Of a DNA stretch of 64,000 nucleotides, positions 8,119 through 62,739 are shown one piece after another. The notes beneath the pieces are model-generated. The model had not been told where the DNA came from. It made no database searches and saw only the letters and a program-made list of their open reading frames with translations. Source of the stretch: Lineus longissimus (Eukaryota > Nemertea > Pilidiophora > Heteronemertea > Lineidae); contig NC_088314.1 in NCBI RefSeq assembly GCF_910592395.1, positions 3,534,001 to 3,598,000 on the forward strand, written 5' to 3'. Position 1 is the first letter of the stretch. Each line of letters starts with the position of its first letter. A program made the position numbers and the translations under genes.

Positions 8119-8207
8119 TTACAATGGAGTGTAGTTGCAGTGGACTATTTCGACAGCATCACTGATCATTGCATCTACGAATGACGCTGGTACAGAGGAG
8201 AGCGGAG
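8119..8207 (-). other. TASOR-like exon 34: short terminal coding exon
   Basis: After donor GTCACAG|GTAATG in exon 33 (phase 1), acceptor TATTTTCAG|CT at 8207 opens a 28-residue tail (PLSSVPASFVDAMISDAVEI...) ending at TAA 8119-8121. Phase agrees. If the donor is not used, the protein ends instead with GNEEGEF at 9893. Both forms may exist. Confidence 0.55.
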
Positions 8208-11200
8208 CTGAAAATAGAATCAAATATGTGATAATGATATTAGCCTAAGTTTGAGACAGCACTACTAAACAGGTCATCACTTTCAGACAGAAAAACACTG
8301 TTAAAAGTGCTGGGGGTGAGTTTAACCCCTGACGATGAACATTTTCCAGTGCCTCACCAATTTTTCAGTTTTCTGACCAATGAACTTATTTCAATAGATT
8401 AGTATTTTCATCAGGAAAATCTTGGTTTTAATGCTGATGGAAGATGAATGTTGAAGGAAAACCGTCACCCATTTCCAAGAGGTAGCTGATGAGAACCATG
8501 AAATAAAATTCCATCGGCCTTTGTAAGAATTGCAAAAATTGGTTTGGTCAGTAGGGGTTTAATGCTGGAAACTATAAGGTTACACAATTTATCATAATCA
8601 TTTGTGGACAGCACAAAGCGATGACAGCGAGTGAACCACAAGGCAAGTAGAATCATGCATGTAGACTAATGCATGATTACAATACTGCATGCCTCCAGTG
8701 CACTTGTTACACTGTGATCATTTGATCTGATAGACACAACAAACGTTAGTCAAGTTGAACTCGCAGCAAGCAGGAGAATATTGAGGAACCCTATCTCGAA
8801 GCAAGAGGGTTACCCTCTTTGTCACCTGAGAGAGGGAGGGGCAGTGCAAGTTATTGGAAAACGTGACTGAAACTAAAGGCTTATAGAAGGAGCTCAGAAA
8901 ACCAACAAGAATATGATAGAATGCAGACTTGAAAGGTAGCTGTGGAAATGAAGATATATCTCTGAGGCTCATATCCTGAAAAGGACAAGTCTACTGTTAG
9001 ATGTTTGCCTTTCATTAGTAAGGTCTGTTCATAGAATACATGTAGAATTATTCCATAAACACAAAACACTGACAACATGCTGCTGTGAATTTCGTTAGTA
9101 TTTGTTATAATGTGCAAAAGTGCACTCATGCAGTTGATTTTAACAGCATACACAACTCATTAATTCTTTACCTGGGCTTGACATTTCCCTTGGCCTACGG
9201 CCAGGACCCCACTAATACCTGAATCTATAGGCTTTAAATGAAAATAGGTGGATTGTGATGGGTTAGAAAGTGCAAGGTATGTAACAGCAAGCAAAACAAT
9301 CTCCGAAGAAGCTTTCTTAACCTCTCAGTCCCTTTTAAATGCCATCTCATATCAACAGCATAATAATCATTGTATGCATTGTAAGAAACTAATGTTTCTA
9401 GACTAAACCATGTGCAAGGAGAAGAAGCAGGACAGAAATTTTTCTTCCAAGTAAACTTGAGTCATAAAGTTGTACATTGCTCACTTTAAACATACTACAC
9501 GTAGGACACTTTGCTTTAAGACACGAGTACAAACATCACAGAAGCCATAACAAATAAATCAAATGGTGAATCGAATCCAACAGGAGATGCATGAGCAGGT
9601 GCCTTTTCAGGCTCATACACAGCGTCCTGTGTGACGTCATTCGAGGTGAACGTCAGACAATGCGACATCAGCAAGTTCTTCTTGATATGCTATGCTGCAT
9701 GTGTTTTTCATGATCGTTTCTTGATATGCTGTGCTGCATGTGTTTTTCATGATCGTTTCATTATGCCAGAGTCACTTGCAAGGTTGTTGATATGCGAAGC
9801 TATAACCAAATCTGTTCGTTGGTGTTGTTGTTACAAACTCCATAAGGAGCCTGAAAAGGTACTTGAATAACAGCGCCATCGACAGGGATCCATTAAAACT
9901 CCCCTTCCTCATTACCTGTGACTTTCTGTTGCTTCTTTTCTTGGTTTTGCGTAAAGTATTCAGCCAACATCTCTTCTAGGTTTACGACTCCAATGGCATT
10001 CCTCTGAAACGGCTTGATGGCTCCAGCCGAGGTGATCTTGTTCAGGTCTGAAGAAGAATTAAAAACGGCTCTCCTGAGACAGGTAAAGTGCAAAACCTAC
10101 GACCTTTTGCCATCAATGGACCCAGGTGTTAATGCAAAGCCTCACCTCACTGTACCCTTTTGGCTCAAGCATAACTGCATAATGCTCTAAGCAGTAGGTC
10201 ATAGTTCAACAATTTAAAGCTTACAATGTATCTTTTCCATTCTTGTTATAATGATAAATAGAAGTCCTAGAAGGCAAACAAGTCAAAAGGGACATAAATC
10301 AAAACTCACCACTGAGCATGATGGTGAATCTGTATGAAGAACAGTGTTTACGCTGCAGCTCTAACAAACATGGCAGGTATTCTTGCGCTGGTTTGGGATG
10401 CATGTCACACTTGTGCTTGGCAAGAAGCTCGACGATCCCCTCATTTCTATAGGTGGTGAGCAGCTCTAGGATGACTCGTGCTCTCTTGGAGATGCCGGCT
10501 TCATTGCTGAAAGAGAAAACTCATCATTAAAACATCGAACAGTCTGCTTTAAAAACAATTTGTATCCAGTGTTGTTCATCCAATGATTTGTGCAATATGT
10601 AACACCCTCTATTTATTCAAAGGAAAGGGGGTTGAAGTATTCAAGTGTCTACTTACTTCTTTGCCTGTTCTGCCAGTTTACAGATGACCTGTGAATGAAC
10701 TTTAACACTCCACTCGTTGCCGCAGCGTTGCTGTTCTAGCATGTCTTCCAGCGCAGACTTCAAGTGATCTGCAATATTGGGAGAAACATTTAGGTCAGCG
10801 TTGGCAAGCAGTTTTCCTGTTGAATCTGGGTTCTCCAAGAGATGATGCAGTCCATGAAACCTACACTACTCCTGCTAAAAGGTAACGCATCCAAAACAAG
10901 AGTCCAGAATCTGACCATTACCTCTAAATTAAACCATATAAAGAGAAGAACTACAGTGTAACTTTTTGTGGCTTGAGGGGTCAATCCCTTGTGTTGTAAG
11001 GTTTCATTTCAGCAAGAGATCAAATCCAGGAGCCTATTTATAATACCAAGCAAGTGCAAGGCACTTTTTCCAAATTCCCAGTTTCGATGAAAGATAAACA
11101 TCAGTCAGTTCTTACCTGGTGAACAATCCAACAGTATATCCTCATCAGGCACGACCATTCCTCCTTGACTAAACAATGCCCCTCTTCGATATGTGCCTTC

Positions 11201-14200
11201 CTGGATTTCTGATACATCCGTATAAGGACAGAAAACTACCTGTGGGTCTTTCTTTAGAACCAGAAGATTAGGGATGAGGTTGGCTCTTGGTATATCCTCT
11301 TCAAGGATGAAGACAAGAATTTCTGTGGTGACATCTTTTGGGTAAAGAGACTGGATGTTGTACGGATCAAATAGCTGGATATTCTGGCTGGTGAGTTGTT
11401 GCTGAAAAGAGAACAGATAAATCACAGTGAAAATATGCTAAAAAGTATTTCAGATGGAGAAAATGATTATAGCTGGCATTGTCCTTGGTTTCATTTAATC
11501 TGCTGCCCTGTTGACTCTGATAACGCACTGATCAGTTTTTTGGCAAAATGTTCTGAAGCAGCTATAATCTAGAAATATATAATAACTATAATTAGGAGAT
11601 TCTGATATAAAGTAACTCAAGGGACATAATAAAAGAGAAACAAAGTATTTGAAGGCTCACCTTGACAAGGTCAGCAGTGTCATCAATGGTGTTGCACACA
11701 TAGGCATAAGTCTTTGGCTGGTCAGATTCTGGACTCTTGTTTTGGATGCGTTGCCTTTTAGCAGGATTAGTGTTGGTTTCATGGACTGCATCATCTCTTG
11801 GAGAACCCATCAATTTCACAAGATCTGATGATCGTCTTCCATCAACTGATTTCAATGCCATCTTGTCTACCTTTAAATTTGTAGTCCTCCGAATTGGGGA
11901 CCCATGCTTGACCGATTCTGTTCCAGTTGTCTCCATATTTGACCCTGCCACTTCAGAGTTGTCTTGGCTACTTCTTGTCATATCATATTGAGATTCGTTT
12001 CGTTCGATCTTGATAGATGCTGAAGCAGTTTCAGGGCTATCCTGAGAAGTCTCTGCATCCCAATAACCTGATGACTTCTGCTGCTCTAACTTTGTCGCTT
12101 TCTTCCTGAACGAGAATTTAATGGGAGATGGCGGCTGTGGCTGGTGCACTTCATTTGTTATCGTTATTTTGATAATTTCATTTCTTGCTGGTGAATGGAC
12201 CACCTTAGCATCATCTACAGAGGACCTCTTTGCTCTTTCCCCTGACTGTCTTCTCGTGCTAATACTTGTCGAGTCCTTTCCTGTTTCTGATCTAGAGCTA
12301 CTGGAAGGCTTCTCCGACCCTTCAGTAGAAGAACGTGGTCGTCCCCCACGCTTCCCTCTTCTCGTACCAAAACGAGATTGATACCGCCCATCAGAGTCCT
12401 TTCTTTCTCTTTCATTTCTATGACTTGAATGTTCATTTTTCCTGCGACTTCCGCTTGAGCTGTGGTGGTAGTTACTGTGTCGGGACATAGATTTAGAAGT
12501 AGAGGACATCGCTCTCTTCCCTGCCACAGCTGACTTGGTTTTCGGATCATCTGCAACACCATCGTCTGAGTCATCACAAATCTCACCGTCTTCCAACTCT
12601 TCACTGAAGGAACTAGCTGTAGATATTGTATCATAAACAGGTGGAGTAGCTGCAGCTTGTTTTGCAGCACACTTCTCTTTCTCAGCCTTGAGCATCATTT
12701 CAATACTTTTGGTGACATCCACTTTTACTCCTGTCGAATAACTTTCACCTGGCTTCGTAGAATCTTTGCTGATGTTACCCGATGTGTATTGGTAATAAGG
12801 ACCTTCTGGTCTTGCATGATAGTCATATGGATCAATGGACCTGCAGTCACGAAGCTTTTTCAACTGCCCAGGGCTTTGGGTCCTAGACCCCTGACCAGGA
12901 CTTCTTGACCTATTACGAGATGAACTTCTTGAGGAGTGGTGGCGAGGACTTTGTGACCTTGACCTGCTTGGTGGACTTCTTGACCGTCTGGTAGAGTAGC
13001 GTCTGGGACTTTTTGACCTTCGTGATGCCCGGCGCTGAGGACTTCTTGACCTTCTGGATTTGTTGTACCTGGGACTTTGTGACCGCGACCTTCTCGATTT
13101 ATAATGCCTAGGACTGCGTGACCTTGACCGGCGAGATACGGAAACTCTAGAACTGCGTGACCGTGACCTCCTTGATGACTGCCTTTTTGAAAATTTTGAT
13201 CTTGAGCCACTTCGACTCCTTGAGTCTGACCTTGATCTTGAATGTTTCCCAGTTATACGAGGTGGAGTTTTTGACCGAGAATCATGCTGCTGGAGAGATT
13301 GGTGCACCACGTTACGTGAGGTGCAACTGGCTGGACATGGACTTCCAAATTTGACAGGGACAGATTTTGATTCTGAGACTTCTCCAGGTTTGTCACCCCC
13401 ACTTGGTAGAGACGGAGTATGGATAGATAAGCTTCGACTCTTGCCAATAAGTTCAGATTCTGCATGCTTATTTGGTACCGGATCAGTATTCAGGTAATCT
13501 GACTTCCCAGCTGCTGGTTCCAATTCGGTAGCAGAGGTTGATATGGAGCCCCCATCAGGTTCATCACCATTTCCTGAGTCAGAGGCAGAATCAAATCCTT
13601 TCCTTCGCAAGAACACCCGTTGTCGTTTAGTCTTCTGGGCTCGCTTGCTAGTGTTCCTTTCGCCACCATCCTCTTCCACATCATCCACTAAAGCCGAGAC
13701 CACTTTCTCCACATTCGGCAAATCCTTGCATTTTTTCTTTATTGGGCTCTCTATCAGTGATGTGCAAGGAACTTGTTCCCTCTTCAAGGGCGCAACTTTG
13801 GATGGTGACAATACTCTGTGATCGCCAAGCACTTTTCTGGCATGCATGAGGATCTCGATATCCTCATGTTCTTTGTCTTTTTCAATAGAATCCGTTTCTG
13901 GTGTTCTCGACTTCTCAGATCTTTCTTGAGATCTTTCTTTGGGCTTTTCTTCACTTTCTGTGACTTTTTTCTGTTCCTCGGTCTCACTCATGGAGACATC
14001 TGTATCCGAGTCAAAACTGCTGCTTGAGGACACATTATCCTCACTTCCAACAGAGTAAGCAGAATGTTCAGGTGTACTGGCCCAATCTGATACATCACTC
14101 TCACATGGTGTGGTATCATGTATTGTAACTTGACCGTGTTTGTTATAGAGAGAAAGTGACATTTCAGATAACGCATGAAGGTGGGTCGACTTAGGAGTTG

Positions 14201-17200
14201 AATCTTCAGCTGTCTGTGTTGACCTCCTTGAGCTGCCAGAGGAAAGATTCAGGCCAAATAGGCTGTTCAAACTGTCATCAAAATGCTGGATCTCTTTTGA
14301 TTTTGCACCGTCAATCACTTGCCTTGATCGTCCCCTGGAGTCACTTTCCGAACTTGGCGATCTTCTAGACCGTCGACGTCTGTCAGAACCAGGAGAATAG
14401 GATATCTGACTAGATTTCTCAGTCACAGAACCTTGTCGCTGTAACCTATCATCATCTCCTGCATAGCGTGGTGGGCGGTCTAATGTGCCTTCATGTTTAT
14501 ATGACCGCCGACTTCTAAAGCAGCGGTTAAAACGATCATGAGACTTCCCCTCTAGATGCTCATCAGCAGGCGTCCAGTATGATGGTGACAAAACCTCCCT
14601 TGATGATCTTCTAGTTGTTGCATTTGAGGAGGCTGAGGCAGGAGAGGATCCTCTGCGTTGTAATGAACTTCCTGGTTCTTGTCCTTCAAGCCTTTCCAAC
14701 TCAAGCAACATCCTTGCCCTTGTTTTAGGAGGTGCAGACCCAGCTTCAGACCCAGTGATTTCTAGCCTCTCCTTCTCCAGCAGCATTCTTGCTCTCGTTT
14801 TAGGGGCCGAGGACAATTCGTCTGAGTGCCTAACAGGAGACTTTGACATCCCTAACTGTCTTGGGCTGCCCCTACATGTGTGTTCCTTGATAGAGGTGAA
14901 AGTGTCTTCTTGTGATTCTTTGGTAGGACTGCAGCTATGCGAGTGATGATATCTCAGTGTTTCAGCAGAACGATCTTTGGCACTTTTCATACCAGGAAGA
15001 GGGATATCTCCAGGCTTCATAGATTTGGAAGTCCTATCTTGCCCCTGTTCCATGCAGAATATATTGCAACCTGGAACTCCACCATCAGTTGTGTCGATGG
15101 AGTCAGTTGCAGAAAACCCTTTGACATTCTCATAATGTTTCCCGAGTTCAGCAAGACCAGCTGGCTTCTTTGTTTGCACCATCTGTCTAAAAGCTTTTAA
15201 CAGAAGATTCTTTCCTTTCATAGGACTGGATTTCAACGTCCCAGCATTACTACATGTAACACTCTTTTTCTCTTCAACAACATCAGCATGTTTGTCAATA
15301 TCGAACTCCATGTAATCATCTATCAACTCTGCCTTTGCCTCAGCTGCAGCTCTCCTTCTTTTCCTCTCCTCTGCATCCATGTCATGAGCCCTTCTCCCAC
15401 CTCTTTTGGCAAAGTAACCACGACCTCGGTTACCCCGACCCTGACTTTGGTCTTGAGCCGTCAAGTTAGGATACCTCATTTTCAGCATGTCACCTAGTTC
15501 TGGACTCTTCCTCGGAATTGGGTCAGGATTATCTTCAACAACCTCCTCCGTGAAACGTTGCTTTTCTGGTGAAGCAGTTTGGTCTTTCCCAGGCTTAAAA
15601 TCTAACTTAAACTTTGCTGGCAAGATTCGAGTACTTTCCCCAATCTGGTCAACTTCTTTGAAGGAACTGTCTTTCGTAGAGGACCCGGTGAGAGCTTCAG
15701 TGGTATCAGCCAACTTTGTGTCATGACAAGTCACAGTTGACTCATCAGTACTGCCTGACTTGGTAATGCTCACTTTCGGAGTAAATTCTGGTTCCTCTAC
15801 GCTGAACATATCATTAGGATCTGGTTTCACCTCAGTAGCCACAGGTTTGAATTGACGAAGAGGCTTTCCTTCAGTACTTCGCTCTGCCTCACTGGCAGGC
15901 TTCATTACAGGCTCCTTCTCCTCACCGATAGGCTTGGATGCTGTAGGCCTGGCAAAAGTATCAGAATCAGATTCACTGTCTGTATCAGAGCCCACGATAT
16001 CATCGCTATCAGTGATGTCATCAACAGCATTACCAGTATCCTGACTTGAGCGCTTTCTCTTGGCGTGCGTTCGTACCTTGGTTCGAGGAGGCTGAAGACT
16101 TTCTGCAATTGCCATCTCAATCTGGCTAAGAAGGTCAGACTCAGACTCTGAAGATTCATGTTTTTGGTCTGTATTCATCATGGCAATGCTGTAGAGGGCA
16201 TGGCTTTTTCCTCTCACAACTGCAGAAGTATCTGGTAACTCAACCTTCTGCTCAGGGCTGTAGCTAGGCAACGATGAGTCAGAGATGCCAAGGTCATCAT
16301 CATCAGTTTCAACAGAGGGTTTAACGATATCACTTTCTGAACTTGACACTTCTACATGTTCCCATTTGCTGTAACCATCAATATCTGCAAGCATACGTTT
16401 GACCCTTCTATCTTCTTTTGGTCCCTTTCTTTGAGGGCTCAACTCTCTATGCACTCTCGCTTTAGGGCTTTCTCGAAATCTACGTGTCGTAGAGGTCTCA
16501 TGATGCATTTTTGCCTGGGGGCTCTCTCTGAATCTTCTAGGCTTTTTAACCCAGCTATCTTCTCGTAAGTAATGAGAACTATATTTCTTGGTAGGGCTAT
16601 CCTGTGTAGGATCGCTTGGTGAATACATCAAGTCTGGTAAGGCATCAAACGTCGGGCCAGTGTCAATTTTAAGTGGCTGCAATAAGGACTCAGCCTCTTC
16701 TGTTAAATCGATGACAGCATTCTTAATTGACTCTGCAGTTGGACCAAGTGGAAGTGCTCCAGGTGTTGACAAACTATGTGGAGCCAAAAACTGTTGTCCA
16801 ATAGGCATATTGAGCCAGTAAGAGCCGTTCCGTGAAGACTTTATTGGACTCGCTCGTATGGGAGATGGAATCTCTTGTTCCCATGATATTGCTTCCGTAT
16901 GGTCTACATCTTCAAAGGCCAAGTCAGAGAGCTTTAGGAGTGTGTTGAATATTTCTCCTTGGACTGTCTTGGAGATGCCATCGATCTCATCTAATCTACG
17001 TTTCGGACAGAGTATGAGAGGTCTCAGATGGGGTGTAATCTCTTCTGGCATTTTTGCCTTGGGACACCAATAGTCTGGATCACTTGCAAGTGATCCGTAC
17101 TCATTTTCCCAGTTCTGCAAAGCTTCTTCTTTGACAGATTCAATCGTGCTTCCAAGCGACCCACACCGATTCAGCTTATCATAGATTTCTTTCAATACTC

Positions 17201-22214: not shown

Positions 22215-22252
<38 letters not shown>

Positions 22253-34200: not shown

Positions 34201-37200
34201 GATATACTACGAAAGTCAAATCAAGCAAAGATAGAACACCAACACCACACATACTGGCAGTGATAGTTTTAGGTATTAACAGAAAGGGGTTAAAATCACA
34301 GCAACATGCAGGTCAGCACTTTTTAAAAGAAATGGTTCAAACTAAAATCCAAACGCTAGAATTTGTCAGTAAGGACAGGAGGTGTTGATTGAAAGTGCAT
34401 TTCACAGAGATGAGACCATGGAGCCCAGCCGAGACCAAACCAAAGAACAACTTGTGGACACAGGACAGGAAATGAAAATGTAAGTTTTATAAGACTGTTA
34501 ATCTATCTTTAGCAGTATTTGATTCCTGTTTTGTTTGGTAACCTCAACTGCTGTTGAATAAAGGCATGTCCAGCCAAGTTCAATATGATTCCTTTTTTTA
34601 GATAATTTCGGAGTCACTGTAAACCTTTCAAAACTGATCTGGTGCCGAAATTTGTGATGACGTTTATCGCCAAAAGGCAACACAGACCTCATTATAACCT
34701 TACATACAGTGAAGCTGAACATCAATTCTTGCAACCTGGTTCAAATTCAATACCCTAAGTGAGATAACACTACAGGTACACAAGCTCATAGACAGAGCTG
34801 TTGAACAGGAGGCCCATTTGAATTTTTGGCAAATGTCAGCTAGAGTCACGTTTCCCCATGTTAATTCCTTCCTTTAAAAATGGGTTTAAACCGAATAAGA
34901 ATTACTTGGTCTGTTGACAACTGAAAGCTGATCCTTCTATGATAAGCAGAATATAGTAGGGTTAGAAGAATCGTTATGATATTTTCTTTGGATTGTTTAA
35001 TGGAGAAGAATTTTCGGATCTGTGGAGCAGTCTCATCTCTGGTATCCAAGGACAATTAAACTCACAGTAGTCTGACTGGGGCCTGCTGTACACGGAGTAG
35101 TCCCGTCTTTGTCATTGGCTGAAACGGAACCCCAGAAATATAATGGAATTCATGGATCTTTAAGATACTAATCATAACTATTACGTACTATTAGTCAATT
35201 CAGAGTAAATGCTACATGTAGTATTGTATTCCAAGATTTTTTTAGGATTGGGTATAAAACCATCGAGTGGCAGCCCAAAATGGAGTGTCGGTGAACAGTT
35301 TTACATGCCAGCTTATATGGGAGCACATCAAGGAGCTGACATGGGACAACACTTCAAATCAGATGGTTAAAATCCAAACAAAAGTGTTAAGCATGACCTA
35401 TTCTGAGCTGTGAGAACTGCCAACTCACCATAAAGAAAGCCTATGAATTCCACCAGGGCTTACCAGAGAGCAAACACCAAAATAAAACAGAAGCCCATCT
35501 ATTCTTTGTTCTGCACACAACGACGAAGCAAGAAAAAAGCCAAACCAAGTGATTCAATATAAATGTGCATCTCAGGATGGGAACATAACTGCCTTCCCCC
35601 ATCCCCCCCCCCCCCAACCTTTAATCACTCAAACCATCAACAGCCACTTATTTTCTTTTCCTAATAGCATGATGTATGTCAGAAGGACAAGTTACATCTA
35701 AAATGTCATTCAATTAGTGTGTAAAATAAAACGGATAGGCTCAATCAAGCAGGAAACTGAAGCAAGACAGTCGGATACCAAGACAAGGCTCTGGTCTGAA
35801 TAGATCCTCAGTACTCACCAGATGTCTCCAAGATGGGCTTGTGCACCTTCGATGGCACTGCCTCTGGAGGTTCATCATCGGCCTTGCGTTTGATTCTGTC
35901 GAGAGAGAAACATAGTACATGTCATTTGGAAACACACAGCGTACGAATATATCTACAAATTTATCAATTTTATACAATACAATGACCTGACAATGACAAA
36001 TATCATCCCGTAGACGCGATATTTTGGCATGAAGTAGCACCGCGGTTTAGCCCTGCACAAGAGTTGAAAGTCCTGTACATAACGTACCTACCACAGTTAA
36101 TTGCGTATACAGGAAGTTCTGCAAAAATTGCCAACACTGACTTGCCATGCTGAAATCATGCAGTCAGTCTGCAAGATCATTCATAGTCTTTGAAATCAAC
36201 AAATTAAGTAATGTCATCTGTCTGAGATAGATTAGATAAACAAAGCTTGAGTAAAAAGTAATCGACAACATTGAGAAATAATTGAAAATAGATCAGATAA
36301 TAGAGGCGGTACATGTAACAAAAACGACACATTTTGTTCTCATACAGAGAATTTTTGAATGTTAACACAGTTTTTAGAAAAGCCAAGTTTTCCTCGCCAA
36401 CACAGTCCTGTGCATTTTCTGGAGGAGAGGACAACAAAAATATGCCAAAGAGAACAACGAAGTGAATAAACACTGAGTTACAAGTAAGGCCTCTGGATAA
36501 CCATGATCAATGGCATGAAGAGCAACACAGATGAAATTGACTCGGACTGGCTCAGCCATCCTTACTTTACATGTACGGTAGTATGCCCAACAGAAGCAAG
36601 TTACCACAACACAACAAAAAACTTTGATGTTAAGTTTGATAGTGAAAATAAGACCCGACACCAAAACTCTAAGCCTGAATTTTAAGATCAATGACCTACA
36701 TTGGTGTATATTACAAGTACAGTATTTTTAACAGACAGGTGATCTCATATTTATATGAAAGTAACTATTTTTTCATATATTTTATCATGAAGTGCAACCA
36801 TGAAATAATTAGATTTACATTAAAATATTGAGTGAAACCACACCGTACTACAGATTAATGTCTACCTGGTAGGAATATACAACGGAATGTCTGTCTTAGG
36901 TGCATGCCACACCCACTTGGTCTTTGGTTTCCTGGGAGGGAGGAGAAGCAACTATTATCAATAGTCTTATGACCAATTACTACAACATCTCCATGGCGTT
37001 ACATGTATTATGCTGGGGAAAGCATTTTACGGCTGCATTATGCTGTATAGCCACACATTGAAATGCAATGCATTGCGAGACCGCAATTTGGGCTGGTGGT
37101 CATTATCATATGTTGCATCAGACCAAAAGCCGTTAACATTTGGAGTTAAAATGGACTACGCAAGGCGTAGTGTAGTCCTTACTGCACAAAGAGCAAAATT

Positions 37201-40200
37201 TCCCCGCTCAGTTACATGTTTTTGATTTCATACACGTACACTTTTAGACAAGGAAGTAAGCATTTACAATGAGCCATAAATCCTGCACCTCGTCCAGCAA
37301 TAAAACATGAAGTATAAAACAAGTCTGGAAATCATGCACATACACAACAAATGGCTGGACCAATTGGACCCAGACAGATCTCAAGCCACAGTGTGACAAA
37401 CATCGAAACCACTTCTTACTGAGCTATTTACTTAAAAACACCGAAAACCAAGTGCTCAAGACACTTTTCAAAACATCGGACTTCAGATTAGCTCTTGGGG
37501 AAGTCAGATGAAAAACCACCCAAAACCACACCAGTCCAAACAATTAGTACATGAAGGCAAGCAGAAGCGATGTACCCCATGACATGGTTACCTGCTCGGT
37601 ATATAGACCGGGTACAACTTGGCTGATTTCCGCTTTGATCTATTTCTGAACCTGTGCATGCTGAAGTAACATGAAGATGTCAATGGAGGGCTTGTGTGAA
37701 AAAAAGTCAGGGATCCACAAATTAATTTCAAGTTACCTTAGCTAAAGCCATCATTACAGGTGGTTATTAAGAAAAAATCATCTTTCTGTAAAGTTCATTG
37801 ACACACTGAGTTGATCGGTTAGCCGCTTGAGGGGCATCTGTTCTACAAGGGCCTATTACGGGTAGACCTCGCCCGACAACTAGCTTAACCTGTTGGCACA
37901 GTTTGTGGCAGTTTAGGTAACATGCATAGCATCACACAACTTGACAAAGGCGGCTTTTAAATCATCATTCAGAGGGAAAATTCATGCAACCTGAAACCAT
38001 ACGACATGATGAAGTCATCAGAACTAAAACACACCATTTACACTCACACACACACAGAACAAGAGAACATTCACAGATCAGATGCCTACACTACCAACCA
38101 AGGGCCAAATATTTCTCTTAGCTTATTGTAACTTGGAGCCAAAAAGGTGAATGACCCTAGTGACCCTTTGATACACTGTTTAAGCCATGTACATGTACAT
38201 GCTGTAACAAAAACAAAACCACACCTACCCAGCTTTAAGCGGCAGAGCCAGCTTCTCTGTTTTGTCGACATCTTCATTCAGGAATGACTTCATGCTTTCA
38301 ACCGACTTGATTGGAGCGTCATCGTCCTCCATTTCGTAAGCGATGTCAATAGAAGCAGGAGAGCCAATAGCTGGAGTGGCAGTGGTGGGCTTTTCATTTC
38401 CTTGATCAGCTTTTGCCTTGTCTGAAACTTGGACTTGAGTTTCCAGTTGTTCATGAGACTTTGCTGTGACTGCTGACACAGGAGTCGGAGGGGGAAGCTG
38501 TACTGTTGCACGTGACAGTTCGAATGCAGATTTTGACTGCTTTACAAGTACACTTGCTATATCAGTCGGTTTGACCGGCTCTGCACCAGGGACAACAGGG
38601 ATATGAAGCTTTTGTAAGAGGGACTTGGCTAGATCACTAGCCGACCGTCCACCAGAGTCCAGGACAGAGTCAAGCTTGTCGGACAGTGGCATAGTTGGAG
38701 TTGACTGAGATGAAGTGGTGATGCTTGTCTGCTGAGGAGCACTGGAAGTGCTGTAGGGACTAGAAAAACCAGTTAGAATACTCTGCGTCTTTGGTGAATT
38801 GAAGTGTTTCTCAATATCACCTGGAGTGTATGTGCTATAGAATCCAGTTTTTGGTTTTGGCGGCGCAGCCTTTTCTTCTTCTTCTTCATGTTCTTCAAGA
38901 TATGGCATATCATTTGGAGAACTTGACCTTGAGTTTGGATCCATGTTATACAAGTCTCTTTCCGCTAAAGCCTGGTCATCAACAGGAGAAGACCCACCAG
39001 ATTTGTCCTTGAGGGATGCGAGTTTCAATCCAGTAGAGGCCTCTGGTTTAAACTGTCCAGGATTGAATTTCTGCAGAATGCTTGTCAGGGTGGCAGTCGG
39101 CAGGATATCCTCAATCAGCAGGTTACCAAGAGGTTGGCTCGTGCCAGTCGAGTGCTGGCGTGCTGCTTGCGGTGGTACTGCAGATGTCAATCCTGTACCA
39201 CTTGCAGTACTAGCCACACTAGGCTGCACACCAGCACTGCCCGGCCCTTCGCTTCCACTCCCTAAACTCTGCCGGAAACGAGGATCCCTACCAATTTTTT
39301 TCCCAGAGATTTGTGTGCCCCAAGGTTCTTTTGCATTGGCAGCACCAGAAGGTGAAATCGTCCCTTTGCTTGCTCCAGAAGGTGGACCATCCCTACCAGG
39401 CACGCGGGGAGTAAAAAGGGGCATAAATCCGAGATAAGACACTTTACTTCCTCTTATATTACCACCAGGGTATCGCACCAGTTCAAAATTGCGTTTATCC
39501 TGCACATGCCTTTCTGCCTTGAAAGTATTACTGAGTGCCGACTTCTTCAGAACGGCCAAACGTGGCATGTCAAATTTGTAGCCATCGTCAGGAAAGTCTA
39601 CACCCATAGCAGTCACTCTCGTTGGTTTAGGCGGCTCTCGTAAATCAACATCATGTTGTCCCACAGGAGGTTCTGGACATGGTGGATGGACCTGATCACG
39701 AAAAGGTCTAGCAGCAGCTTGAGAAGGAGGTTGTGAATTCGGTGGCGCTGTCACAATTTTCGTGATTTGTGATATTGCTTCCTGATTGTCAATCTTGCCT
39801 GCTGACAGTTTATACACCAGAGCAAGTAATTTCGGGTCCGCAGATGATGATGAAGCTTTGGATTGAGCAAGATCATGTATTTTTTTGTCCCGATCTCCTG
39901 GAGTCGGCAGTAATCCTCTTTCTCCTGGAGTCGGCAGTAATCCTCTTTCTCCTGGAGTTGGCAGCAATGGAGGACGACTGTACTGCCGTTTAACCTTTGT
40001 ACTGGCGCTGCTCGTCGCTCGGCCATGGTGGTCATACTGTCTTTCCGGTCCCAGTCTAGAATACAAGCTGTCTTCTGATGAAGGAGATTGATCGCGCCCG
40101 TGATCGTGGTATACTGATCCAGCCGGGGAGAAGCCAATGCGAGGTTGACCTGAAAGCAGACGAAAAGTCCTTGCAACAAAATTCCTCGGTTTGCTATTAG

Positions 40201-43200
40201 ATCATAGAATACTGAGGTGTTTGCACTACTTAGCTCTGTACTTGACTTGAGTAGGCAACACTATCTGACATTTATGAACCTCAAAATGTGGCATTTTATT
40301 CTTTATTTCAATGAACAGCAACACAAAGGCAGCAAGAAATTGAGTCTAATTCAGATGGCTGCATCAAAACTGATGGAGATAAAGAAGAAACTACCATTAT
40401 CACAAATGTTTGGAATAAAATTAGAGTGCTCTGTGGTTAAGAAAACATTTCAAAAAGGACTACAAACTACTACACTGAAACAAAAGAGAACAAAATCAGC
40501 TTACAGAATGAGGAAAGAGAGCAAGATAGAAATTATTTTGAACTCATAACACCAAACACCAAATTTTATGTTCTCCACACCTTTTGGGTAGGACTAGGAG
40601 GCTCATAAACCAGGTTTTAGTTACAGATTCCCATGTTGACCAAGGTGTGAAGGTAATGGTAATGGTAATGGTAATGGTAAACAGTTTGGGGGTTGAGGAC
40701 AGCATCAATGGGATTGTCAAACTCTGTTCACAGGTGTGGAGAACACTGCAGTTTAGACAGATAGTCACCTGCAAATGGGACGTCATAAAATGCACGATAA
40801 TCGACGTCGTGGGCAGTGCGATAATCCATGTCGTGATCAGTAGCTTGCTGCAAGAGACTACCATAGGGTTGAACACCCTCGTACGAGATTGGGTACGAAG
40901 AAGGTAAAGTGACTTGTGGGGAGCCCTCGTGTGAGACTGGTGTGTTCCACATCGATTGAGGTGTTAGAGGATGGTGAAAGACGTTAGGTGTTTGTGGAGT
41001 CATCGGCGATGAGTCTCCGGGACTTGTTAGTAGTGGACTAGAGAGGCTGTCAAAACCACCACCATAGGATTGGGTTGGGGATGATAGGACTGGCTGAGCT
41101 GTAAATGTAAGTGGTAGGAATGTGATTATGGTTTAGGTTAAAGGTTTTTAAACTTGTATGTTATGGAAGGCAGCTTATCATATCTATGTCTTGTTTCGGA
41201 TGTGAAAGCAATAAGCATGAAAGATGTATCATTTTATATGCATTTAGAGGCTATCCTAACCTAGGTTCTAGTGTTTAGGGTTTTATGAACCTAACTTGCC
41301 AAAGACAAACCAAGGCTCTGAAAACCACACAAACGCTAGTGTCAACCCCTTTCCAAAGTGGCGAAACCTTGCTCAGGTAGCAAAGAGCACCACTATTCTA
41401 GCACAGAAGCATATAGAAGAAAATTAGAATAATTGTTAAGTTGTGAAAAAAATATGTGCCTCTAGGGTAATGTGGAAATGAAGATGAAGATACCAGCACA
41501 CTTTTCAAATATATACCTCTGGAAGCTGCCAACCTGGACATCCTGGGCGAGATGAATATACAATGCAGAGATATCACAGGCAGTTTAGTTGAAGGCAATC
41601 CTGAAAATAAAGGAGAACGAGGTTGACAGGAGGATACAGGTTTTCAATGGTGGCTCAAGGCTGACTACCAGGTTTAGTTGCCACGGTGATTTGGGCCGAG
41701 TAGCTGACTTTTATATGTGTCCTCTAGGGTACAACATCATGGAATTAGCCCCCCCCCCCCCTTGGTTGATCCGATATCTTTGCTGAGGTCACCCCACAAA
41801 TTCGTTGCTGAAAATCATCTATAACTGCCTGAAAAGTTACTGACTTACCAACTTTCACAGTCACATCACAGTCAGGAATCAGCAAGATAGTCACATCCTC
41901 CTCTAACTTTGCAATCAGAAACTGAAAAAGAAACATATTTTAAAAGATAGATTGAGAATTGAACGTAGGTTGTACAAATCACTATTTCCTTTATGAATCC
42001 CTTGATTAACAGGCCAGTGAATTAAGTCACAAGATGTAACACCCATGGCCAGCAAGTGACTGTCAACCTCACACTTTGACAAGTTGCCTGTAGGGAGCAG
42101 TGTCATTAATGAATGAGCGAGTGGATTCTGTCTGTATGATTGGTCCGACTCAAATGAAATTTGCCCAAATGGAGATGGCATGATCTTTAAACCAGCTGCT
42201 GCATGACCCTGTAAAGCTCAAGTGTCAAGGAAGATGATCCACCTACAAACCCACCTTTTTCTTCACCTCCAAAAACTTGACGAGTCTCTTCAGATTAGTT
42301 TCATCACCTTTCTGGGGCCGTATGTCACAGCAATTGTAAAACTTCCCATTGTATTTTTTCTCGTTCCCCTTCACCAGGCTGTATATGTTACCCAGGAACC
42401 GAGACTCCAATACACTCAACGGAAAGCTCGTGTTTATCAGGATTTCATCAGATCTGAAACAGGAAAACATTTGAACAAGTTTATACATGTACAAATTGAA
42501 ACAAATTGAGGCATTTGTTTGTTTAACAAATCATTCATACCAACTTCTCTATCAGCAGCAAAATTGTCATTGGTGGTTTTTTTTTCGGATTTGAAAAATA
42601 AATGTGACCTGTGAGACAGGCCACACATATACAAGAAGACCTCACCAGATAGTTATCACACTCACATCTTTGCAGGCCTGACAGCATTGTTGAAGGTCAC
42701 CAGCTCAACATAACAGGTCAAGGCGTACTTGTTCTTCAAGATGCCACTCCAAGCCACATAACCTTCACTCTCTGTGCACTGTACTTCTTTGGGTGCTGCA
42801 GCTGGTTTTGGGACAGAGACAGGTGGTCTTGAGACGGGACTGCAAGAAAAGAAAAGCAAAATTAATCTAGACACTTTCTAAGCTAGTTTCATAAAGCAGA
42901 AAACTATGCCTGAAACACTGTCACTGAATATGCCAAATAAAATCATCAAGGAATCAAGCCCCCCCCCCCCCCACCCCCACCCCCCACGTGGTATGCCTCA
43001 ATCATGTCTATGTACGCATATAGCCTTATATACTAACCTTGGTTTTATGACTGATTTTAATGGCTTGGGTTCGCTGGTTGGCACATACTGGAACTGTAAC
43101 ACAGCATATTGACAGATCTGTCTGGGCCTGGCCTTGGGTTCAAAATCTTCATCATATTCATAAATGTAGAGCTGAAATAGATGAAGATACTAATTCACAA

Positions 43201-45595
43201 ATGGGACTTGGAGAAAAGCCAGCAATTTTTTCTCGAGTTATTGTTTTCATGTGGCAGAACGAGTAACCTGCAGCAAGGATAATGTTTTACACCAAGAGTT
43301 CGATGCTAGGAGCAGCTTGGGAAGGGGCAGGTCAACTGAGTATGCTGAAACACTGTGCACAAGATAATCACTTGGGTTTATTACAATTTTAATACATGCC
43401 AGGCTTTGATTTGATACTCATAACACCACTGCTTGACTATCAAATTCACAAAATACCATAAAATATTTTTCAATTTCTACACTGTATTCATTCTGTTGTC
43501 ATACCTGTGCTGATTCAAATGCTTGTTTCATTCCAACTTGAGACGGATCAATGCTGGTGGTCTTGGAGATATGGCAGTCAAAGTTAGGCGTGGGATCAAG
43601 TGGAATCTCACCCCGGTTCTCCACCATCGGTTTGACCTTGCCTTTCATCACTCTGAATATTACCAAGTTTCCTTTTACTCCAGTTGTAAGGGTAAAAGGT
43701 TTTAGAATGTCGGAGAAGCGACACAGAGTGACACCTGGAAAAAGTTATAATCATACTTTATTATTAAGCCCACTGTTCAGTTCTAAGCAGTTGCTGATTT
43801 TTTGTGGTTTTCTAAAAAGTTGTTAAAACTAAAAGGGCAGATACTCCAAGATATTATGATGTTACAATTGGACAGCTGCCTTGCAATAGGTTCAACTAAA
43901 GACTTCTACTTGTCCATATGGCAACTACTTTACTGAAGTAACTTTTCCATAAGAGGATAGTTGTCCAGGACAATTGGACAAGTAGGATAATCAAGCAGTT
44001 TCAACACGATGAGAGTGTCAACACATCACATGATCAACGAAAGAAATAATTAACCTTTTGTAGCATCACCAATACAAGACGACGTCACATTGCCAGCTCG
44101 GATCCCCTCCTTGCAGATCTGGTGTAGCTGAAACAGAAAGGAGAGAAATTCAGGTTAACCAGGAGGGCTTCCCGACTTCTTAACTCGGCCCGTTGCTGAA
44201 GATCTCCGATGCTGGAATCGGCAGCCTGGTGCCCACGGGTGGTTTTCAGGTGCCCCTTAGATCAACCTGCACCCTAGAAAGCTTAAGTAACACTCTTATC
44301 AAAATCAAAATGTATTGTAGCATAAGTGAAAATCTTCTAAGTTTTGGATGGGCTAGCGGCACATCAAATAATTGAATGAAGCCTAAACAGTCACGGCTGT
44401 CCACCTACCTCAATCTGATCAAACACAAGTAGAAATGCATAACTGTCGGCAGTTTCTTTCTCAGAATAACCATCAACTCGCATCTCCTTTCTCTTCTCTT
44501 GATACTGAAAAGACACGTTATATCCAATCATACCAGTTTCTTGGAATAATTCAGAATTTCTTCTAGTTTATAAACAACTTGAGCTCTTTGACATGAGTGT
44601 TTGAACGGTGAGTTGTGTCAAAGAAATGCTAGTGTTACCATGAAATTGCAGATGACTTATAAATGGAATAACAGCACACACTATGACTAAGGTCATGACA
44701 ATAACTCGGTGAACTGATAATGATAAAAATCTTGTAGTTGTACCTCATCCATGATATTCTGATTATGAACGAGCTGAGCACTCTGGTACTTGAAGGCTTG
44801 GGTTGAACCTCCTCTGTCCTTGAAATTTTGCTGTATGATTGGCAGAATCTCATTTTTGAATTCTCTAGAAGTGAGTGTCAATTCTTCAAATAAACCTACG
44901 AACAGAAAAAAGACCTACTAAGGAGAGATAGTTTTATCAGCAACTGCATGATATGTTGATGTCTGGTCGCTACGGTCTGGTCCATACAGTACATCACTCC
45001 ACCAATATCGTTATGCTATATGAACTTTTCTCTAGACTCTGACGATTGCATGTTGATCAAAAGACAAAATATGACAAATTCGAAATATTCAATTGCAATC
45101 CCACATCTAACTGAAACTGGCCTAAATACCTTTTTTCACCTTCTGTCTTTTTGGAATCGTGAATTTTTTCAATGTGTCAATATCAAGATCCTGGTAATCA
45201 GCAAATTCGCCTCGATCTTCTTTATCTTTGTCAAGTCTGACATTTTCAACATCAACATTTTGAGAATACAAATCCCTCGATGACACATCTCGCCTCCTCC
45301 CATGGCCAGCAGAGTTGTCTCTTTTACTAGCCCCTTGGCTGCTGGATGACGCAGACCGACCTCTTATTACAGGAGGTGGCACTTGTCCACCACCTGCAAC
45401 AACCGTGGAGGGATGCGGCGCAGAGACTGCTGAAGAGGGCATACCAATAGCCACCTTCGCATTTCCATGAAAATCTGACTTTTGGCGATCATATTTTGGT
45501 ACATTTTGTTCATGTGCACAAATTTTCGACCCATTCTTTTCATCCTCTTTGGTGTCCTTTATATTACTAAACAAATTATCAAAGAGATTAGCCAT
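8119..45595 (-). CDS. TASOR: giant TASOR-like (HUSH complex) protein, 34 coding exons, about 5,775 aa
   Basis: TASOR scaffolds the HUSH complex with MPP8 and periphilin and directs H3K9me3 silencing of transposons and intronless DNA. Evidence here: exon 1/2 joins as KKGLFEELTLTSREF, matching the family entry into the pseudo-PARP (DUF3715) domain; exons 2-6 follow that domain to its end; exons 7-9 are SPOC-like; exons 30-33 match the TASOR C-terminal domain. I traced all 34 exons by GT-AG signals; every junction keeps phase and the total (17,328 nt) is divisible by 3. The start is ATG 45595 (MANLFDNLF). Human TASOR is about 1,670 aa, so ~4,000 residues are extra: C2H2 fingers, SPR repeats, SIM-like run, RS domain. 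The donor of exon 22 is the weakest call. An alternative is two genes fused by my model, but no internal start, stop or polyadenylation break is evident. Exon coordinates are in the segment entries. Confidence 0.8.
8208..9915. other. terminal intron of the TASOR-like gene
   Basis: 1.7 kb without convincing coding content. It holds an inverted-repeat element at 9599-9862. The open frames on the minus strand at 8465-9153 have no matching splice phases that I could find. Confidence 0.45.
9599..9862. mobile_element. MITE-like element, ~16-bp terminal inverted repeats
   Basis: Left GGTGCCTTTTCAGGCTC (9599-9615) and right GAGCCTGAAAAGGTAC (9847-9862) are inverse complements with one mismatch. Inside is a 39-bp direct repeat (9681-9719 and 9720-9758), which produces the repeated LICYAACVFHDR frame at 9631-9870; I do not regard that frame as a gene. 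Confidence 0.5.
9893..11401 (-). other. TASOR-like exons 30-33: TASOR C-terminal domain
   Basis: Exons: 11401-11116, 10768-10657, 10506-10310, 10047-9916 (or read-through to a stop at 9893-9895). Landmarks following the vertebrate TASOR C-terminus are VTTEILVFILEEDIPRANLI, GGMVVPDEDILL, LKSALEDMLEQQRCGNEWSV, EGIVELLAKHKCD, CLLELQRKHCSSYRFTIML and NLEEMLAEYF. The fold is probably the PIN-like and helical part of TASOR. This end fixes the gene's identity independently of the N-terminus. Confidence 0.9.
12850..13260 (-). other. RS (arginine-serine) domain (exon 29)
   Basis: About 135 residues (~4970-5108) are dominated by RS/SR dipeptides and SRSPR/SRSQSPR units, for example RRSRSRSPRHYKSRRSRSQS. 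Such domains occur in splicing factors and in nuclear-speckle and chromatin-associated proteins, and are substrates of SRPK/CLK kinases. It is not part of vertebrate TASOR as I know it; the HUSH partner periphilin has an Arg/Ser-rich low-complexity part. Confidence 0.9.
16805..17290 (-). repeat. internally duplicated ~75-residue module (exon 29)
   Basis: Copy 1 (about 17285-17060) starts HFRPLHSLFKKDL, continues VTQGVLKEIYDKL, ALQNWENEYG and ends PDYW. Copy 2 (about 17040-16805) starts HLRPLILCPKRRL, continues TVQGEIFNTLLKL, AISWEQEIP and ends GSYW. The order and spacing of conserved positions agree. The module looks helical and is not low complexity. A weaker third copy may precede it (FQLRTPLAEDARNLGEINKV). 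Confidence 0.55.
17885..18345 (-). other. tandem SUMO-interacting-motif-like segment (exon 29)
   Basis: Within ~155 residues (about 3275-3430) there are about eight short hydrophobic strings next to acidic or Ser residues: DDDVLIIQTSD, SGDTVVVQQSD, NDDVIIVQRT, SDDVIITPA, CEDVVVIQQS, SDGDIIVGKK, SDVAVMVQE, and YDVIIIGESPE. The pattern (V/I)x(V/I)(V/I) with acidic flank is the established SIM core. Several units share DVVIxQ(S/T) context, which suggests tandem duplication. A run of this kind would favour poly-SUMO binding. Confidence 0.75.
18380..19060 (-). repeat. SPR-type degenerate protein repeat (exon 29)
   Basis: Residues ~3040-3265 repeat short units such as RNSSPRQ, RRESSPSRPG and RNELSPSR. 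At DNA level the unit is degenerate at ~33-66 bp periodicity. It is disordered and rich in Ser-Pro kinase sites. The antisense strand gives a Leu/Gly-rich 186-codon shadow frame. Confidence 0.85.
20917..24524. other. 3.6-kb intron of the TASOR-like gene (between exons 27 and 28)
   Basis: No coding signal is seen. It contains a TAC trinucleotide microsatellite (22215-22253), a duplicated 24-bp unit with TACATGTACATTA words near 22500-22550, and AT-rich unique sequence. Confidence 0.6.
22215..22253. repeat. (TAC)n microsatellite
   Basis: About 12 uninterrupted TAC/CTA units lie in the large intron. Confidence 0.95.
26536..29944 (-). other. TASOR-like exons 18-23: five single-exon C2H2 zinc fingers
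   Basis: Exons: 29944-29843, 29548-29447, 28184-27966, 27657-27436 (linker), 26974-~26765, 26619-26536. Five fingers have the form C-x2-C-x12-H-x5-H: CGFCWKSF...HQVASKH, CLACSLEY...HFDSTGH, CGFCWNTF...HRENTGH, CGSCVMDY...HLEYSGH, CGVCENAY...HAESSGH. The H-x5-H spacing and the GH ending are typical of U1C/matrin/JAZ-type fingers, which often bind RNA or dsRNA. All these exons are phase 0 at both ends. Exon 21 is a Lys/Glu coiled segment plus a poly-Ser run from a TCA repeat. The exon 22 donor is uncertain: I use TGT|GTACGA for phase. Confidence 0.8.
29640..29735. repeat. small inverted repeat in a TASOR-like intron
   Basis: CCCCTTTGCAGTG near 29649 and CACTGCAAAGAGG near 29714 can pair with one mismatch across ~50 bp. 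It is possibly a fragment of a small element. Confidence 0.4.
30247..31490 (-). other. TASOR-like exon 17: Ser/Thr/Val/Pro-rich region
   Basis: A 1,244-nt exon (residues ~1612-2027) encodes a disordered region. It includes basic clusters (PPRKKNKLGE), repeated KxEP-type motifs (LKQEPVD, IKTEPPGK) resembling SUMO acceptor consensus psi-K-x-E, and long Val/Thr/Pro stretches. It ends phase 0, directly before the zinc-finger exons. Confidence 0.75.
31741..35895 (-). other. TASOR-like exons 14-16, with a conserved-looking globular segment
   Basis: Exons: 35895-35819, 32898-32253, 31880-31741 (residues ~1325-1612). Exon 14 has a basic nuclear-localisation-like RIKRKADDE. The first part of exon 15 is low-complexity Thr/Ala/Pro. 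From ~1480 the composition changes to a balanced ~125-residue segment (SDKYCSFISKIAREHGNFEG ... LGRYKRGELSEMEKINEES) that looks folded; I do not recognise it. A 128-codon Gln-rich frame on the same strand in another phase (32563-32949) is an overlap shadow. An exon-like block at ~35.07-35.11 kb was left out because its phase does not fit. Confidence 0.65.
31896..32228. repeat. ~134-bp tandem repeat, about 2.5 copies, in the intron before exon 16
   Basis: AAGCACATGACTGCACTCAC recurs at about 31897, 32032 and 32166, with the intervening ~134 bp nearly identical between copies. The array ends a few bases before the exon 15 donor at 32253. Confidence 0.9.
36866..37651 (-). other. TASOR-like exons 12-13: pair of similar short cassette exons
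   Basis: Exon 12 (37651-37592, 60 nt) encodes FRNRSKRKSAKLYPVYIPS and exon 13 (36931-36866, 66 nt) encodes a 21-residue block ending TDIPLYIPT. Both enter and leave in phase 2, both are multiples of 3, and both end Y-I-P-[S/T]-Arg. They can therefore be spliced together, singly, or as mutually exclusive alternatives without breaking the frame. Confidence 0.6.
38229..41098 (-). other. TASOR-like exons 10-11: long disordered linker
   Basis: Exons: 41098-40769 and 40149-38229 (residues ~532-1283). The linker is Pro/Ser-rich, with a 9-residue repeat LLPTPGERG in three copies, an acidic Glu run, and a short likely helical element near residue 710 (KLLALVYKLSAGKIDNQEA). The exon-10 donor GCAG|GTGACT is fixed by phase with exon 11; ignoring it would end the frame 29 codons later. 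Confidence 0.75.
39890..39970 (-). repeat. in-frame 27-bp tandem repeat, 3 copies (exon 11)
   Basis: Three adjacent 27-bp units encode LLPTPGERG, LLPTPGERG and LLPTPGDRD. The units are nearly identical at DNA level, which indicates recent, probably length-variable expansion. Confidence 0.9.
41849..42839 (-). other. TASOR-like exons 7-9: SPOC-like domain
   Basis: Exons: 42839-42666, 42453-42255, 41921-41849 (residues ~384-532). The sequence EGYVAWSGILKNKYALTCYV starts a beta-rich domain typical of SPOC. It continues through LSVLESRFLGNIYSLVKG and ends with FLIAKLEEDVTILLIPD. The position directly after the pseudo-PARP domain is the TASOR arrangement. Confidence 0.75.
43038..45595 (-). other. 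TASOR-like exons 1-6: N-terminal tail and pseudo-PARP domain
   Basis: Exons: 45595-45130, 44895-44744, 44504-44409, 44127-44055, 43734-43505, 43171-43038. Residues 1-~150 are a disordered leader. Residues ~150-384 are the pseudo-PARP (DUF3715) domain, with landmarks SREFKNEIL, AQLVHNQNIMDE, ADSYAFLLVFDQ, QICKEGIRAG, GNLVIFRVMKGKVK, LDPTPNFDCHISK, and LYIYEYDEDFEPKARPRQIC. Each has an aligned counterpart in vertebrate TASOR. The vertebrate domain is known to lack NAD+ binding and catalysis but to be needed for silencing. Confidence 0.9.
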
Positions 45596-46725
45596 CCTGA
45601 AAGACTAATTTGGACATATTTTGATTGCAAAATCGTGAAAACTTTTAGTCAACACCATCATCCACAAAAATAGATAACTCTCATATTGTCCAATGAGCGA
45701 GTATGTGACAAACGTCTGACACTGTCGTCTTATAATCGTTTTCATTGGTCGCTTGAAATATGAGGCGCCGAAGCAGCGATAAATGCCAAGTGCCGGTGTG
45801 AAAGAATTTCTAGTCCTTCAAACTGCACCAATCATTTACCAGCTGTTCCATTTAAATTTATACCGGTATATCAAAATTTCATGTCCAAGTCTTCAGAAGA
45901 AAATATTCACCGAGAAAGAGGTTCTGCATGTAGAAATGTACAGAGCAATTTTGCGCTGCGACATATTCCTTAACGCCGAAAACTGGCCTGAGTTGAACCG
46001 ACGGTCACTCCCTGCCGTGCCAGGCACTGGAACGACGAAAATGTGACTAATATACAAACAGCGCTCCATAATTAAGATCAAGTCTTGCGCAATTACCAAA
46101 AGGTTGAACATTTTTCGAATGGAAAAGAAGTGAACTTGCAATATCTGAAGTGCGGTGATAGTCGCTGTGTGTACACAGTACATGTGTATCGTGTGTGCCT
46201 TTTTCCGCAAAAAACACTGAAGTTTTCCATCAAATACTCCAAATCTGATATTCAAACTTGTTTTGAAATTGTCATAAGTTGGTGAGAAATATCAGAGTGT
46301 TAATTTTGCTGACAATTTAGCCATGTTTTCATGTAGATAAAAGCTACAGTAGGCCTAGGCCTATGATGAGTATACGCATTGATTACATAACATACTACAT
46401 CAATGCAGAAAGTTTGTGTACATTTTCAGATGTATTCAAGAATTTACAGAGCAGAAAGCAGCAGCTTCACCAATTCTCGTCATGGCAACTGTAGTTATAC
46501 ACAAATTTCACTGACAAGCTCAAGCTCAAGCAGACACACTTGGTTATGCCATGCCCTCATGACGTCCTGAACGTCAGAGTGTAGGGGCCTATTAACAAAA
46601 GATCTCATTGTCGGGTTGATGGCATAAATCTTGTGGTACATTTCCTTTCTCTTTTACCAGGGTGCGAGCTTGGTCGTAATGCTGCTCCTTACCTTTTCAG
46701 AGTTCCTAGGTCTAGCATTGCCAAA
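45596..46725. promoter_or_regulatory. divergent intergenic region between TASOR-like and MYND genes
   Basis: 1.13 kb separates the two start codons, which point away from each other, so both promoters should lie here. A 3' splice site (ACCTTTTCAG at 46691-46700) just before the MYND gene's first ATG suggests an upstream non-coding exon in this interval. No TATA box or other element is clear. Open frames here (for example 45783-46046) have no support. Confidence 0.5.
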
Positions 46726-62497: not shown

Positions 62498-62739
62498 ACT
62501 ACACTCCGGACGCAGTGAATTTGCCTATAGGATGACTATGGACGGCATCGCCGGGTAGTCTGCCACTGGATCTGTCCTTTCTGTCGCGCTCATGGCCAAG
62601 ATGAAACAACAACCATTTCCTAATAATCTGATGAACATTTAATAGTGCATCCCTGGGCAGCCCATTGCACCATCCTAATAGGGTCTCCTTATGGGTGAGG
62701 AACGAGGCCGGTCCACTGTCCTTGCGTCCGGAGTGTAGT
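62498..62739. mobile_element. MITE-like element with 17-bp perfect terminal inverted repeats
   Basis: ACTACACTCCGGACGCA (62498-62514) has its exact inverse complement at 62723-62739. There is no coding sequence inside and no obvious target-site duplication. Confidence 0.55.

Follow-up and report, generated by a model that had tools for sequence, protein, structure and literature searches.

A Candidate TASOR Gene of Lineus longissimus Predicted to Encode a Giant Scaffold With Conserved Folded Ends and a Different Middle

TASOR is a subunit of HUSH that silences transposons in humans, and the human protein (1,670 aa) carries a pseudo-PARP domain, a SPOC domain, DomII and a PIN domain in that order. 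The HUSH complex has been described as specific to vertebrates (Douse et al., 2020, PMC7532188). In human TASOR, MPP8 is bound by residues 525–633 (DomI) and periphilin by residues 1000–1085, and the proximity partners of TASOR include the matrin-type finger proteins ZNF318 and ZNF638 as well as RNA-processing factors (PMC7532188). TASOR-like proteins defined by the arrangement DUF3715-SPOC-DomI have been reported from across the metazoa, DomII and PIN being given with the vertebrate architecture (Schopp et al., 2023, PMC10578480); the abstract, results and phylogeny methods of that study mention neither fingers nor giant size. The pairing of SPOC with DomII-PIN is also present in Chp1 of the Schizosaccharomyces pombe RITS (PMC7532188). 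In mouse cells, MPP8 and ZCCHC8 provide the physical link between HUSH and the NEXT decay complex (PMC9433625).

The window analyzed here, a stretch of 64,000 nt from NC_088314.1 of Lineus longissimus, harbors on its minus strand a multi-exon gene running from 45595 to 8119 (∼37 kb), as traced from splice-site scores and open frames. The model comprises 34 exons, which make up 46% of the gene length and are joined by 33 GT-AG junctions, and has 17,322 coding nt (a multiple of 3) with a single terminal stop. The predicted protein is 5,773 aa long, or 5,754 aa with an alternative in-phase acceptor of exon 31 (10825 or 10768, either equally possible). The start, stop, strand and length of about 5,775 residues proposed in an earlier note on this DNA were thus reproduced; its statement that 34 hand-traced junctions kept phase with a total divisible by three was right as to the open frame and the total, and the junctions were counted as 33. 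The splice sites of the model were partly hand-chosen, and the weak points are the donor of exon 22 at 26828 (score −0.8), the acceptor of exon 31, the 31-nt exon 24555–24525 and the last intron (9916–8207). Exons 18, 19, and 32 have coding scores of about zero. The predicted start ATG has A at −3 and G at +4; as it sits immediately after an acceptor, a 5′ UTR exon is expected. The features of the locus are as follows.

45401..46450, no strand: CpG-normal block at the 5′ end of the TASOR-like gene, common to the divergent neighbor
45130..45595, minus: exon 1, with the predicted start ATG at 45595 and a disordered N-terminus
43038..44895, minus: exons 2–6 (44895–44744, 44504–44409, 44127–44055, 43734–43505, 43171–43038), pseudo-PARP/DUF3715, aa 157–368, from PDB, Pfam and human alignment
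41849..42839, minus: exons 7–9 (42839–42666, 42453–42255, 41921–41849), SPOC, aa about 410–518, from phmmer against reconstructed human SPOC
38229..41098, minus: exons 10–11 (41098–40769, 40149–38229), Pro/Ser-rich insert, exon 11 with coding score 121.9
39964–39896, minus: three LLPTPG[ED]R repeats within exon 11
35819..37651, minus: exons 12–14 (37651–37592, 36931–36866, 35895–35819), short, with YIPS/YIPT motifs; best-scoring sites, phases fit
30247..32898, minus: exons 15–17 (32898–32253, 31880–31741, 31490–30247), with psi-KxEP SUMO-type sites
26536..29944, minus: exons 18–23, five C2H2 fingers and a linker exon, from strict pattern matches
29944–29843, 29548–29447, 28184–27966, 26974–26828, 26619–26536, minus: the finger exons, one finger each, phase 0-0
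27657–27436, minus: the linker exon, K/E-rich, then Ser-rich
20449..25814, minus: exons 24–28 (25814–25702, 25359–25213, 25020–24864, 24555–24525, 20916–20449), acidic linker, holding the 3.6-kb intron 24525–20916
11661..20236, minus: exon 29, 8,576 nt/2,858 aa, in-frame coding score 504
about 18944–18390, minus: SPR-repeat block in exon 29
18314–17892, minus: SIM-like cluster in exon 29
17840 and 12128, minus: two SPIKF motifs in exon 29
17684–16860, minus: helix-rich segment in exon 29
about 13292–12842, minus: SR domain in exon 29
12593–12579, minus: EDGEI motif in exon 29, aa 5173
11116..11401, minus: exon 30, TASOR alpha/beta domain (DomII), from PF23314
8119..10825, minus: exons 31–34 (10825 or 10768–10657, 10506–10310, 10047–9916, 8207–8119 with the stop), PIN_TASOR and C-terminus, from PF24630 and collinearity with reconstructed human TASOR

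Sequence search of the PDB with the spliced head identified the human TASOR pseudo-PARP domain (6TL1, 6tl1_A) over its entire length with E = 4.1e-45, the sole other listed match being a designed repeat protein (E 0.0012). Pfam analysis of the head showed PF12509 (DUF3715) with E 2e-28 and 99.7 bits against a cut-off of 28.5, and 85 of 207 aligned residues (41%) of the pseudo-PARP domain were identical to the human protein. The SPOC domain that follows was matched by phmmer to a reconstructed human SPOC segment with E = 2.7e-6 in a search of 10 targets with shuffled controls; the match showed 28/115 identical residues (24%) and was collinear with that of the pseudo-PARP domain. The SPOC piece on its own gave no match in the Pfam and PDB searches. 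A candidate exon at 42208–42068 was dropped from the model, as human SPOC aligns without those residues. With the pseudo-PARP domain as the query, no related locus was confirmed in the genome and viral contigs searched.

At the other end of the chain, PF24630 (PIN_TASOR) was found with E 1e-25 and 90.6 bits against a cut-off of 27, and PF23314 (TASOR alpha/beta, DomII) with E 5.8e-6 and 26.8 bits, just short of its cut-off of 27. The two matches adjoin each other and are collinear with human TASOR, and DomII-PIN shared 65 of 192 residues (34%) with the reconstructed human sequence. The C-terminal pieces gave no match in the PDB sequence search. For comparison of the whole chain, the human TASOR query was a reconstructed sequence of 1,661 of the 1,670 residues, for which 6TL1 and 6SWG served to check two segments. 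In its numbering, human residues 96–457 aligned with model residues 141–518 and human residues 1261–1433 with model residues 5506–5703, with no match between model residues 519 and 5505. When open reading frames of at least 25 aa in six frames were compared with the same query, all eight matches lay on the minus strand in the head or tail. On these alignments, the predicted gene has a head and a tail homologous to and collinear with those of human TASOR, which bears out the TASOR identity that the earlier note had given to both ends.

The two proteins differ in what lies between. The stretch from SPOC to DomII is ∼5,000 residues long here, much of it of low complexity, against ∼730 in human TASOR (limits 505 and 1233), and relative to the human protein the fingers, SR blocks, SIM cluster and EDGEI motif are present in addition. 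The earlier remark that such residues are not known from vertebrate TASOR holds against the reconstructed human TASOR, the one vertebrate form compared. The reconstructed human segment of the MPP8-binding DomI was unmatched in the model by single-sequence search, and no DomI-like frame was matched among the open reading frames of at least 25 aa. The helical segment that binds periphilin (human 1014–1095, the query being confirmed against 6swg_C) was likewise unmatched in the model; divergence of so short a segment is possible, and a single-sequence search misses diverged helices and easily overlooks short docking segments of this kind. These missing matches make it worth testing the idea of the earlier note that this chain may itself carry functions which partners supply in vertebrates.

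Five strict fingers of the form C-x2-C-x12-H-x5(6)-H were seen in the minus-strand frames of 41.2–8 kb, where 200 block shuffles gave 0.02 on average. The count agrees with the five C2H2 fingers reported before. The spacing was uniform, C-x2-C-x12-H-x5-H in five out of five. The best Pfam matches of these short pieces were generic C2H2, OTU1, KIN17, and ASCIZ, all below cut-offs, and among the zf-met, U1, and jaz models the single match was to jaz (E 0.18, below cut-off). As the best family matches are generic and fall below the cut-offs, a nucleic-acid preference of the fingers cannot be stated, and their earlier description as RNA-type goes too far. ZNF318 and ZNF638 have fingers of C-x2-C-x12-H-x5-H spacing and SR-rich stretches, and the present protein resembles them in these two features. 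As an origin of the middle, ZNF318 was rejected, the part of it compared giving just a biased 3.8-bit coiled-coil match.

Exon 29, which was also within the training set, has a coding score of 504 in frame, the remaining frames being negative. It contains the SPR repeats, SIM cluster and SR blocks, in agreement with the SPR repeats, SIM-like run and RS domain noted earlier. All motif patterns were picked after reading the sequence, and the following counts are to be read with this in mind. The SIM-like pattern [DE][VI][VIL][VIL] occurs six times in 141 aa of the cluster (same-stretch shuffles: mean 0.35, maximum 4 in 2,000) and nine times in the whole protein against 2.2 expected. The protein also has six psi-KxEP SUMO-type sites against 0.46 expected, a number reached in none of 500 shuffles, and 13 psi-KxE sites against 5.3 expected, reached in one of 500. 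The sequence EELEDGEICDD in an acidic stretch, searched as [DE]DGE[IVL], fits the ARS2-binding class [ED][ED]GE[ILV], listed in ELM as LIG_ARS2_EDGEI_1 (PMC10767929). Of the contacts made by such motifs, that of Red1 with Ars2 has been solved and that of ZFC3H1 with ARS2 seen by pull-down, human ZFC3H1 and FLASH being examples (PMC9402713). Since the relaxed pattern also arises in 18 of 500 shuffles, the EDGEI motif is suggestive only as an ARS2 contact. Similar to the ARS2-binding adaptors (Red1/ZFC3H1, ZC3H18, FLASH), the motif here is placed in an acidic stretch; the short motif alone is in common, the other domains of these adaptors having no Pfam match here. PxVxL (HP1) and RVxF (PP1) motifs were not above chance in the protein.

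In searches for domains, the middle yielded no homology in Pfam with read-through frames (20286–30000 in three frames, 30001–40260 in two of three frames, and exon 29), through which alone the small middle exons were scanned. Single middle exons, including exons 11, 15, and 17, showed nothing credible in Pfam beyond the fingers, and exons 29, 11, and 15 had no match in the PDB sequence search. For the helix-rich segment 17684–16860, AlphaFold2 run without an alignment gave a mean pLDDT of 37, which is uninformative. A less disordered stretch was found at aa 1486–1596, in the region of exons 15–17.

The locus has several repeats and mirrored frames. SPIKFxxRKK occurs twice in exon 29, ∼1,900 residues apart, and two SPIKF were obtained in 0 of 500 shuffles. 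A minisatellite of ∼134 nt in three copies, the other two matching the first at 97 and 71%, lies at 31893–32268 across the border of exon 15 and intron 15, and a tandem 96-nt duplication with 98% matches is placed just downstream of the gene at 6756–6950. There is also an inverted repeat of 91 nt (10827–10917/11719–11809, 88/91 identical): the arm that ends intron 30, right next to the acceptor of exon 31, repeats the 3′ coding part of exon 29 in reverse. The two arms could pair across exon 30 in the transcript; alternatively, the repeat may stem from an error of the assembly. No repeats were reported by BLAST self-comparison. The plus-strand open frames 18262–18864 (200 aa) and 38841–39437 (198 aa) mirror repeat-rich coding exons and are probably not genes.

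The number of genes was evaluated from phase, gene finding and base composition. With the best donors and acceptors chosen blind to phase, 28 of the 33 junctions agreed where 11 were expected (binomial 1.5e-9, an optimistic p-value as exon frames and rough limits were hand-set first); the mismatches fell at junctions 1, 22, 23, 24, and 32. A simple gene finder, trained partly on large exons of the same gene and in its first version missing the PIN exons, called one gene under two intron penalties (5,709 and 5,439 aa), its exons differing locally from the model (part of the pseudo-PARP exon is read in a different frame, and the last exon is at 8791). Forced splits cost 5.3–14.9 log units in eight of the nine introns tested (those >600 bp, of 33). 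At the last intron (9916–8207) the cost was 0, which affects only ∼30 residues. Lax boundary penalties gave four genes (45595–27182, 26941–24502, 22827–9516, and 9184–8791).

The CpG profile of the 64,000 nt showed three CpG-normal blocks (threshold 0.85, set after the profile was seen), at 2801–3850, 45401–46450, and 61651–62700, with none in 8–45 kb. The second is possibly a promoter shared with the divergent plus-strand neighbor (45760–49951), whose predicted start lies within it; in the large open frame of this neighbor there are Cys-rich repeats (ECCSSKNCVYR), and Pfam gave no match for it at 0.01. The third block covers the predicted start (62204) of a predicted minus-strand gene at 52265–62204 with shikimate kinase and the threonine synthase N-terminus, which we take to be THNSL1-like. 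The first block instead falls on a coding exon, that of a minus-strand open frame with PUB and UBX domains (2904–3932, presumably UBXN6-like by this domain pair), and the predicted start of the UBX gene at 7008 is without a block. Such blocks are hence an imperfect sign of promoters.

A single transcript, proposed earlier as the simplest reading, is favored by the phases, by the one-gene calls, by the TASOR domains standing at both ends in the human order and, more modestly, by the lack of CpG-normal blocks inside 8–45 kb, with the reservation that a split at the 3.6-kb intron 24525–20916, the weakest join, is cheap; taken together, the sequence makes one transcript likely. Two adjacent genes would arise if the boundary lay in this intron, with a pseudo-PARP/SPOC/finger protein (∼2,470 aa) and an SR/SIM/PIN protein (∼3,300 aa) together forming a split TASOR. 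The split there costs 5.3 log units under standard penalties and none under lax ones, when the finder breaks at that place itself; the join hangs on the 31-nt exon, one of two candidates fitting with both site scores >1, and an in-frame ATG is present near the start of exon 28. Human TASOR, however, joins both ends in one chain and in this order, the phases across the small exon fit with the best-scoring sites, and the supposed second start has no CpG-normal block (maximum 0.64), although some predicted starts lack one anyway. We regard a pair of genes as quite unlikely. It is far less probable still that the exons of unrelated genes were chained by eye or brought together by a faulty assembly. 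The partly hand-chosen splice sites and the 91-nt inverted repeat connecting exon 29 with intron 30 would agree with such an artefact, but the blind best-site result, TASOR at both ends, and the gene-finder scores of 65 for the plus strand (8–46 kb) against 934 for the minus strand (7.6–46.2 kb), to be read with the training on part of the gene that flatters the minus strand, speak against it.

On the reading that we favor on balance, this is an invertebrate TASOR gene encoding one scaffold of ∼5,750 aa whose head and tail would act as in HUSH and RITS, in transposon repression and complex assembly, and whose long middle would be a flexible arm recruiting silencing factors linked to nascent RNA and to SUMO. 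RNA may be contacted by the SR blocks and perhaps also by the fingers; the EDGEI motif may contact ARS2 and RNA-decay adaptors; and the SUMO-type sites with the SIM cluster may gather the SUMO-dependent H3K9-methylation machinery. The domain ends and the motifs are seen in the sequence, and every contact proposed for them is inferred. Some support comes from mammals, in the link of HUSH to NEXT and in the matrin-type finger proteins and RNA-processing factors among the proximity partners of TASOR. The proposal that partner functions are built into the chain fits this anatomy and gains slightly from it, the DomI and periphilin segments being unmatched and SR, SIM/SUMO and EDGEI elements present, and may be kept as a fair hypothesis. 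In its stronger form, TASOR would have lost the docking of MPP8 and periphilin and become a self-contained HUSH in which one chain does both jobs, with fingers and SR blocks for nascent RNA, an ARS2 contact, and SUMO sites and SIM cluster for H3K9 methylation; we consider this unlikely. Rather unlikely, too, is that the gene is single and its middle a lineage-specific disordered expansion devoid of partner-like function, the protein working in a normal HUSH beside separate MPP8 and periphilin. Low complexity does mark much of the middle, the middle segments tested showed no domain homology, a single-sequence search can readily overlook docking segments that are short and helical, and many large nuclear proteins have SR, SIM, and SUMO motifs; the five uniform fingers, the tight SIM cluster and the psi-KxEP sites well above the shuffled expectation argue against a mere expansion.

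Among known systems, the predicted protein agrees with the invertebrate TASOR-like proteins in having DUF3715 followed by SPOC, and differs from them in that DomI is unmatched and that DomII and PIN, features of the vertebrate layout, are present (PMC10578480). As DomI is among the features that define TASOR-like proteins, its missing match counts against the favored reading. With Chp1 it has in common the pairing of SPOC and DomII-PIN; it differs in having a pseudo-PARP domain, in being much larger and in showing no chromodomain among its Pfam matches. No giant or finger-bearing TASOR appeared in titles and abstracts among the matches listed in literature searches. The layout, as read from the sequence, would be new for the TASOR family, with the known ends kept and a middle for which no precedent was found; it may prove common in some phylum, which would lessen the surprise and leave the structure of the finding the same. 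The working of HUSH depends on how TASOR gathers its partners. A chain of over three times the human length, with both folded ends of TASOR kept and a different middle, would show which parts are ancient and which contacts replaceable, and it allows a direct test of whether the RNA-decay and SUMO links, which in mammals are partly supplied by partners, lie within the scaffold itself.
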